A program made the translations under genes and the position numbers. DNA of 53,022 nucleotides from an uncultured Pseudomonadales bacterium (GTDB lineage: Bacteria; Pseudomonadota; Gammaproteobacteria; Pseudomonadales; Pseudohongiellaceae). The DNA is taken from contig CAJQHM010000093.1 of assembly GCA_905478195.1 (NCBI GenBank), forward strand, positions 1 to 53,022, read 5' to 3'. This document shows, piece by piece, positions 26,130 to 27,988 of the stretch; within the stretch, counting starts at the first letter, position 1, and each line of letters begins with the position of its first letter. The notes beneath the pieces are model-generated. The model did not search any database, was not told where the DNA came from, and was given only the letters and a program-made list of their open reading frames with translations.

Positions 26130-26909
26130 CTAGACTGCAAGCCCCTTTCTTATCTTGCTTAGCTGCTTGTATATCTTCGGATTGCCGAAGTGCAGTTCCT
26201 TGGCCTCGCTAAGGTTGGGATTGCCGCTCTCGCTAGCCAGCAGCCCGCCGGCCTCCTGCAGTATGAGTTTGGCCGCGGCTAGAGTGAGTCGATTCTCATT
26301 GGCTGCGCTGCCACCTTGTATCCGATCTGCCGCTATCTGTATCATATCTAGCGCGGTACAGCCGGAAATCCGCGGGCTTGCTCCCGCGCTCATAAATTCT
26401 GACTGCAGGGCGATGGCTACGTCTTGGGGTAGTCCGTCTGGATTGATGCTGAGAAGGCTTCCCTGAATCTCTGTTCGATTGCCCACGCGAATTCTATGTG
26501 AATTCAGGCGAGCACCGGCGCCGCGTGTCGCGATGAACTCTTCACGTAGAAGCGGGCAGAGAAATATCGCATGTTGCACTGTGCCTTCGATCTGGCAGGC
26601 CAGAGATACGCCGAATTGGGTATAGCCGGTGGCAAAGTTTCTATTGCCGACCAGTGGGTCGATAAGCCAAACGGTATTCTTATTCTCGCCCTCTCTAAGG
26701 CCGGAGGCGCGGGAATGGAAACTGTGCTCGGGATGGGCCTTCTCTAGGTGATAGATAATCGTTTTTTCGGCTTCAAGATCCATCGAGGTGAGAAAATTGT
26801 CTGGATCGTCGTTGATTATTTTAATTCTATCGAGGCGATCACTGCTATGTGCTATGGCCTCAGCTGCATCTCTTGCAGCCTGCAGTGCGATGTTTAACAA
26901 GGGGTGCAT
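26130..26909 (-). CDS. suhB: SuhB ortholog with catalytic residues lost (predicted non-phosphatase)
   Basis: 259 residues, aligned without gaps to remembered E. coli SuhB over the first 130 residues (MHPLLNIALQAARDAAEAIA against MHPMLNIAVRAARKAGNLIA). The metal-binding motif WVIDPLDGTTNF reads WLIDPLVGNRNF: Asp84 is kept, but Asp87 is Val and Thr90 is Arg. TEESG at 66-70 reads SRASG, losing Glu67 and Glu68. In the second motif, WDFAAGELLVREAGG reads LTLAAAKLILQEAGG, so the metal Asp (E. coli 212) is Thr. Inositol-phosphatase activity is therefore unlikely. E. coli SuhB has a separate role in rRNA transcription antitermination with Nus factors, which could be what is kept. Divergence from trmJ, as in E. 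coli, supports orthology. AGGAAG precedes the ATG. Confidence 0.88.
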   Translation of the reverse strand: MHPLLNIALQAARDAAEAIAHSSDRLDRIKIINDDPDNFLTSMDLEAEKTIIYHLEKAHPEHSFHSRASGLREGENKNTVWLIDPLVGNRNFATGYTQFGVSLACQIEGTVQHAIFLCPLLREEFIATRGAGARLNSHRIRVGNRTEIQGSLLSINPDGLPQDVAIALQSEFMSAGASPRISGCTALDMIQIAADRIQGGSAANENRLTLAAAKLILQEAGGLLASESGNPNLSEAKELHFGNPKIYKQLSKIRKGLAV

Positions 26910-27205: not shown

Positions 27206-27988
27206 ATGTTTGATTTCAGTCAGGTTTCAGTAGTTCTAGTTAATACCTCCCACCCAGGTAATATTGGCGCCACCGCTCGCGCCATGAAAAATATGGGCCT
27301 AAGTAAGCTAACCTTAGTTCAGCCGGAGGACTTTCCAAGCGGCGTAGCAGTTGGTCGCGCTGTGGGTGCCGTAGATATTCTCGATAATGCGAGGGTGGTT
27401 GCAAGTCTTCAGGAAGCGGTAGAGGATTGCGGGCTAATCATTGGTGCCAGCGCCCGTTCTCGAAATATTCCTTGGCCCATGGTTACTCCGGAGCAGTGTG
27501 CTCACAAGACAGTGACCGAGGCCGGTGTAAACAAGGTTGCGCTGGTATTTGGCCGTGAAGACTCTGGATTGAACAACGAGGAGCTGCAGCTGTGTCATTT
27601 TCATGTGCAGATTCCCGCAGACCCAAATTACAGTTCCCTGAACCTGTCTGCCGCGGTGATGGTTGTTTGTTATGAGGTGCGTAAAGCCGCATTGGCCCTC
27701 GCAGAACAAACCGTCGTGGCCGAAGATGAGTTTTGGGATCAGGAAAAAGCCAATGGTGAACAGATGGAGCATTTCTATGTGCACCTGGAACGGGTAATGA
27801 CGGCAATCAAATTCCACGACCCGGAGAACCCAAGACAGCTTATGCCGAGAATGCGCCGTCTGTTTAGTCGCATCCGGATCGATGTTATGGAGATGAATAT
27901 TCTTAGGGGAATCCTCAGTAACATCGAGTTTAGACTCGACAACGAGAAGAAGTTAGAGGTCGAACTACAAGAAAAAAACAAAGAGTAG
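27206..27988 (+). CDS. trmJ: tRNA (cytidine/uridine-2'-O-)-methyltransferase TrmJ
   Basis: 260 residues from ATG 27206 (MFDFSQVSVVLVNTSHPGNI). SPOUT-class methyltransferase: motif 1 NTSHPGNIGATARAMKNMGL, motif 2 ALVFGREDSGLNNEEL and motif 3 IPADPNYSSLNLSAAVMVV, the trefoil-knot SAM site. The C-terminal 80 residues form the helical TrmJ extension that helps bind tRNA. It methylates the ribose of position 32 in several tRNAs. The frame extends to 27020, but those 62 residues are not family-like and include the predicted promoter. It is divergent from suhB, as in E. coli. Confidence 0.94.
   Translation: MFDFSQVSVVLVNTSHPGNIGATARAMKNMGLSKLTLVQPEDFPSGVAVGRAVGAVDILDNARVVASLQEAVEDCGLIIGASARSRNIPWPMVTPEQCAHKTVTEAGVNKVALVFGREDSGLNNEELQLCHFHVQIPADPNYSSLNLSAAVMVVCYEVRKAALALAEQTVVAEDEFWDQEKANGEQMEHFYVHLERVMTAIKFHDPENPRQLMPRMRRLFSRIRIDVMEMNILRGILSNIEFRLDNEKKLEVELQEKNKE

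Follow-up and report, generated by a model that had tools for sequence, protein, structure and literature searches.

Escherichia coli SuhB acts as a Nus factor, and changing two of its residues together (KL251/254AA) lowers its affinity for the AR2 domain of NusA more than a thousandfold (PMC6614801). Work on E. coli has indicated that inositol monophosphatase (IMPase) activity is unnecessary for the suhB phenotype, which is relieved without it (PMC6614801; PMC4807359). For catalytic IMPases, residues Glu83, Asp104, Asp107 and Asp235 of the Mycobacterium tuberculosis protein correspond to human residues 70, 90, 93 and 220, the motif is DPXDGT, and activity drops sharply when these sites are mutated (PMC2080633).

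Here we describe a suhB gene in a stretch of 53,022 nucleotides from an uncultured Pseudomonadales bacterium (contig CAJQHM010000093.1), which we refer to in its entirety as the window. We consider it likely that the product of this gene is non-enzymatic and has been retained as a Nus factor; there are no binding or activity data.

The trmJ-linked suhB and its active site

The suhB reading frame is unbroken, with an ATG start, 259 residues and no internal stop codon, and it is divergent from trmJ, an arrangement that is shared with ligand-complete relatives. The features of the locus are as follows.

26130–26909, minus strand: suhB ortholog without a catalytic site, 259 amino acids (from the open reading frame, homology and structure)
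27206–27988, plus strand: trmJ, the divergent neighbour and locus anchor, with its start set at 27206
26706–26711, minus strand: codons of Arg67 and Ala68 (E. coli Glu67 and Glu68)
26658–26660, minus strand: codon of Asp84, the only retained catalytic position
26649–26651, minus strand: codon of Val87 (E. coli Asp87)
26643–26645, minus strand: codon of Asn89 (E. coli Thr89, motif DPXDGT)
26487–26489, minus strand: codon of Arg141, invariant in 157/157 dead SuhBs (place computed from the gene start)
26283–26285, minus strand: codon of Thr209 (E. coli Asp212; place computed from the gene start)
26166–26168, minus strand: codon of Lys248 (E. coli Lys251, a NusA-AR2 contact; place computed from the gene start)

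A preliminary description of this DNA had identified the gene as a trmJ-linked SuhB ortholog that retains the fold, and both statements hold: trmJ is its divergent neighbour, and solved SuhBs lead the sequence and Foldseek lists. Over residues 1–250, its top solved relatives are the SuhBs of Pseudomonas aeruginosa (E = 5e-46) and E. coli (E = 1.6e-39), and the Pfam model Inositol_P, which has a cut-off of 27 bits, matches at 108.6. The NCBIfam SuhB equivalog, PRK10757, reaches 145.6 bits, which is under its cut-off of 332, yet it is the best NCBIfam model for the protein. An AlphaFold model with 16 orthologs as input is confident (mean pLDDT of 93.3), and a Foldseek search with this model ranks the P. 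aeruginosa and E. coli SuhBs first, with query TM scores of 0.86–0.94 for the first eight matches.

The genome of the window has three genes with the IMPase fold: the trmJ-linked suhB; a gene on contig C49 that scores over the TIGR01331 cut-off and is CysQ; and a ligand-complete IMPase on contig C63 (G000:C63:11659-12459), referred to below as the C63 type. The C63 protein is about 30% identical to the window protein and likewise falls under the PRK10757 cut-off, at 172.6 bits. HisN was rejected as its identity, as the score is far under the NCBIfam cut-off.

We scored six catalytic positions in E. coli numbering (E67, E68, D84, D87, T89 and D212), among them the metal ligands E67, D84, D87 and D212. 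Aligned to the E. coli and P. aeruginosa SuhBs, the window protein has R67, A68, D84, V87, N89 and R90, with T209 at the place of E. coli D212, and D84 is the sole survivor of the six. The alignment thereby confirms the earlier reading that Glu67, Glu68, Asp87 and the Asp of the second motif have become Arg, Ala, Val and Thr, respectively, and that Asp84 alone is kept. A further replacement, of Thr90 by Arg, was correct as to the arginine but not as to the motif: the motif threonine is T89, which is Asn in the window protein, and R90 is not diagnostic because, among the 20 ligand-complete SuhBs of the window's family, 19 have it too and the twentieth has His. The alignment had also been called ungapped, which is true to about residue 155 and fails beyond it; the region of the GFPF loop is shortened, and E. 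coli D212 therefore aligns with T209. Beyond the metal ligands, the window protein has lost K34 (the mobile-loop Lys), the GFP loop, R184, E205 and W211. We infer, in the absence of assay data, that the protein is unable to act as a Mg2+-dependent IMPase.

The family of the window (f1) was searched in 137 genomes, of which 135 gave a match, and 129 SuhB rows were obtained from 129 genomes; L111, L112, two rows of the C63 type (L147, L148) and two duplicates (L012, L149) are not part of these counts. Five genera (g1, g17, g18, g19 and g20) have Arg67 and have lost E67, E68 and D87 in 109/109 rows, with T89 and D212 each kept in one row. Three other genera (g15, g16 and g21) keep all six positions in 20/20. 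We refer to these two states as dead and intact. Mis-assembly, sequencing error and chance can be rejected as the source of the losses, which are the same in all 109 rows, including those from single-contig genomes (G024, G071, G148 and G149). On a quick tree built from 142 rows and 200 amino acids, the dead rows of f1 form one clade (SH-aLRT of 100, stem of 0.71 changes per column) that is sister to the intact clade, and trmJ lies divergently upstream in 104/109 dead and 20/20 intact rows.

The 20 ligand-complete rows of f1 are already altered at the GFP loop, R184 and E205. Given that R184 is replaced in these as well as in the dead rows, the substrate site was partly altered before the metal site was; from these alignments, loss in f1 looks staged, with the substrate residues going first.

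Some records in this family need separate mention. A ligand-complete second SuhB in G073 (L112) adjoins P. aeruginosa SuhB in the tree and was set aside as probably part of a contaminating contig, and the origin of a ligand-complete second copy in another metagenome-assembled genome (L111, G039) is unresolved. Two titles look wrong: Klebsiella pneumoniae for L192 and SAR86 for L154 and L166, all of them metagenome-assembled records with SuhBs that are 45–86% identical to that of the window.

Dead SuhBs and the C63-type IMPase across the order

Because several genomes of the order had no normal SuhB score, we examined 80 places, mostly trmJ regions. SuhB homologs were recovered from 69 of them, 41 ligand-complete (one is cut by a contig end and keeps five of five visible positions) and 28 with at most two of the six ligands. 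The trmJ-linked SuhBs of this sample are bimodal, with all ligands or at most two. The 28 dead rows, all divergent from trmJ, come from families f6, f7, f20, f27, f37, f38 and f39 and from one f40 genome (G239). The other 11 places, which gave no SuhB match, comprise five in f15, four in f24, a single one in f17, and that of G026. The trmJ neighbourhoods of four f24 genomes (L264–L267) showed no SuhB homolog; one of these four has an intact SuhB elsewhere (L280), and the f17 genome likewise has one away from trmJ (L308). In f15, a shortened, very divergent homolog that starts MHPSNSLL and has a changed C terminus lies by trmJ (L257, 1017–1742, minus strand; L258–L261), and is perhaps an even more reduced state.

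A TrmJ tree with 88 rows, of which 39 are dead, requires six changes of the dead label (bootstrap 5–95% range, 6–7), placed at f1, f6+f7+f38+f39, f20, f27, f37 and G239. At least four of the six are forced by well-supported TrmJ branches. The count of independent losses relies on this one gene tree, the weak points of which are the support for the f6/f7/f38/f39 group (87/66) and the long branch that joins f43 to f37.

Arg67 recurs in four dead groups: f1, f27, f37 and the f6/f38/f39 group. Of 135 proteins with Arg67, 134 have an acidic residue at position 84 or 87, compared with 9 of 21 that have neither Arg nor Glu at 67. It may be inferred, without model coordinates, that Arg67 takes the place of Mg2+ by pairing with the acidic residue at 84 or 87. 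Read in this way, the recurring change of Glu to Arg would exemplify a pseudoenzyme in which arginine stands in for a metal ion.

The C63-type proteins form a clade of 24 rows (SH-aLRT of 99) and keep 17 of 18 catalytic positions; in the residue comparison and the position-conservation test, the C63-type rows include repeats (20 rows, 15 distinct genes). At E values of 1e-60 or better, the C63 type was found in 96/109 dead versus 0/20 intact genomes of f1, in 22/28 versus 0/48 genomes of the order sample, and in 118/137 versus 0/68 overall. Presence and absence depend on this threshold, and G136, which is counted as lacking the gene, has a contig-end fragment. A pooled Fisher test of the association ignores relatedness, and f1 and f40 fall on both sides; values at the level of families (3e-8) and of loss events (6e-6) are fairer, if rough. 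In G113, which also has an interrupted suhB (see below), the C63-type match contains several stops; this genome shows either a poor assembly or real loss.

A larger draw gave the C63 type in 85 of 390 genomes (E of 1e-55 or better), confined to families f1, f6, f7, f20, f27, f37, f38 and f39. In 20/20 further C63-positive genomes, the trmJ-adjacent SuhB has at most two of the six ligands; these genomes belong to five families in which the dead state had been seen before, and 13 of the 20 come from genera not read before. A search for the C63 type beyond the order, in 274 genomes of the class, returned only two matches at E = 1e-60 or better, both from the order, and the next best match was at 6e-53.

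At E = 1e-60, the C63 type is missing from 19 of the 137 dead genomes (13 in f1 and 6 elsewhere), ten of which are at least 91% complete, and a replacement enzyme is therefore not obligatory. Judged by gene content, such genomes are cases in which the enzyme has disappeared altogether. A supply of phosphatase activity by the C63 type is inferred, without activity data.

Retained residues and alternative explanations

We compared 157 dead proteins (109 from f1, 28 from the first order sample and 20 from the second). W81 and R141 are present in 157/157, E222 and G224 in 155/155, and Lys or Arg at position 251 in 153/155. With respect to the mode-1 contacts with NusA-AR2 (PMC6614801), the window protein keeps Lys251 as K248 and has Ser251 in place of Leu254; position 254 is Leu, Val or Ile in 86/107 rows of f1 and Ser in 17/107. 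A loss of NusA-contact residues, which the preliminary description had named as evidence against its reading, has thus occurred at Leu254 and not at Lys251. The NusA of the window's genome has two AR repeats, both above the cut-off, as does that of every dead-lineage genome in a 145-genome sample except G239. In that genome (L236, f40), NusA has one weak AR repeat, and the contact between NusA and SuhB may itself be eroding. No 16S gene was found anywhere in the assembly of the window, hence there was no boxA leader to inspect.

Conservation was also compared over 72 positions with an identity of 94% or more among 50 intact SuhBs; we divided these positions, by a list of our own choosing, into 18 catalytic positions and 54 others. 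Dead SuhBs outside f1 keep none of the catalytic 18 and 21 of the other 54 at 80% or more (Fisher P = 0.0008), and those of f1 keep 5 and 28, respectively (P = 0.10). The mean fraction kept in the dead rows of f1 is 0.26 at catalytic positions versus 0.69 elsewhere, even though the thresholded test gives P = 0.10.

The preliminary description had left room for the start of gene decay, in which the catalytic residues would be gone because the gene is turning into a pseudogene. Some observations point that way: the long stem of the dead clade of f1, the shortened and very divergent homolog that is all that f15 has beside trmJ, the absence of a trmJ-type SuhB row from 8 of the 137 genomes of f1 (G045 and G047 have no match, and six have only matches at E = 1e-29 to 1e-34) and one dead row of 172 amino acids that ends at an in-frame TGA (L146, G113:C25). 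The eight genomes are all at most 88% complete and that of the 172-residue row is 72% complete; of the remaining dead orthologs of f1, 106 are full length and the other two, of 211 and 249 amino acids, run off the ends of their contigs. Across 296 pairs of dead orthologs (Nei–Gojobori method, 0.05 < pS < 0.62), dN/dS reaches 0.72 in some pairs, but its median is 0.20, and it is only 0.030 and 0.036 between the window and its two nearest species. The window suhB is under purifying selection and is not decaying. With Arg67 constant across five genera, W81, R141, E222 and G224 invariant in the dead rows and a confident AlphaFold model, decay is an exceedingly improbable explanation. The idea that a close intact paralog might mark the window gene as a pseudogene does not survive either: the second intact IMPase whose presence was in question does exist, but it is the C63 gene, which is only about 30% identical and lies in a separate clade.

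It is also possible, although we think it unlikely, that a remodelled site binds another ligand and that the protein is a new kind of enzyme or sensor. The former site is not free to drift in f1, where R67 and D/E44 are conserved in 109/109 rows, D/E84 in 108/109, N91 in 106/109 and G88 in 100/109. This conservation would follow, however, if R67 formed a structural pair with an acidic residue, and the pocket residues vary among the separately dead families whereas R141 and Lys/Arg251 do not, which makes one shared new chemistry unlikely. We give very little credence to a further alternative, in which the trmJ-linked gene is without either function and the C63-type IMPase serves as Nus-SuhB in its stead. 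The C63 protein is ligand-complete and scores somewhat higher against E. coli SuhB (6TQN, E = 9e-46 versus 3e-39 for the window protein), but of 33 distinct C63-type genes just 2 have Lys or Arg at 251, the type mostly lacks R141 and the NIALRAAR stretch of the N terminus, and it is missing from 19 of the 137 dead genomes. Moreover, where both genes were read, the C63 type occurs only beside a dead trmJ-linked copy that is itself conserved.

Proposed separation of the two functions and comparison with described SuhBs

Our best reading, for which no function has been measured, is that the Nus role of SuhB has repeatedly been split from its phosphatase activity, and that a paralog dedicated to the enzyme function has often accompanied the split. 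This is the natural separation of two functions that had been proposed for the window gene, and the conserved dead form, Lys251 and the C63 enzyme all support it, with the separation itself inferred in the absence of assays. NusA binding and a role in antitermination are likewise inferred for the window protein. On this reading, the dead SuhB would bind the AR2 domain of NusA and the rRNA leader and would help NusB and S10 to enter the antitermination complex, thereby supporting rRNA transcription and 30S assembly, and the separate C63-type IMPase would carry the phosphatase job. As to history, we lean slightly towards a scenario in which one ancestral or transferred C63-type duplicate repeatedly took over the phosphatase function; the trmJ-linked SuhB would then have been reduced to a Nus factor alone on about six occasions and, in four groups, Glu67 would have convergently become an Arg that replaces Mg2+.

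We found no published precedent for a SuhB pseudoenzyme or inactive IMPase in the open-licence literature, a search that left subscription journals mostly outside its scope. Within the literature searched, what looks new is that lineages have repeatedly made the split of functions permanent, mostly with a dedicated catalytic paralog. The independence of the rRNA role of SuhB from phosphatase activity has so far rested on E. coli mutants, and evolution appears to have repeated the experiment several times. If this is true, the two functions of SuhB are separable in nature, and a ready set of independent natural mutants is available. The comparison also flags R139, R141, G232 and K251 as candidates for the Nus role, and genes annotated as inositol monophosphatase in these families need not encode enzymes.

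Among described proteins, E. coli SuhB, a subunit of the antitermination complex (PDB 6IB7, 6IB8 and 6TQN; PMC6614801), shares with the window protein the fold and the Lys that contacts NusA-AR2, and the window's genome resembles that of E. coli in having a NusA with two AR repeats. The E. coli protein retains the metal site, whereas the window SuhB is naturally without five of the six catalytic positions; unlike the E. coli case, the window's genome has a different, ligand-complete IMPase. That C63-type enzyme belongs to the same fold family and keeps all six catalytic positions but, unlike the window protein, has lost Lys251 and Arg141 and lies in a separate clade. P. aeruginosa SuhB (PDB 8WDQ and 9J90), the best match by both sequence and Foldseek at 36–37% identity, differs from the window protein in having all six positions and, according to the entry title, was crystallised with inositol-1-phosphate. 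The catalytic IMPases of human and M. tuberculosis have the Pfam Inositol_P fold in common with the window protein, which is without equivalents of human Glu70, Asp93 and Asp220 (PMC2080633) and has neither the DPXDGT motif nor the Lys of the mobile loop nor the Trp of the active site.
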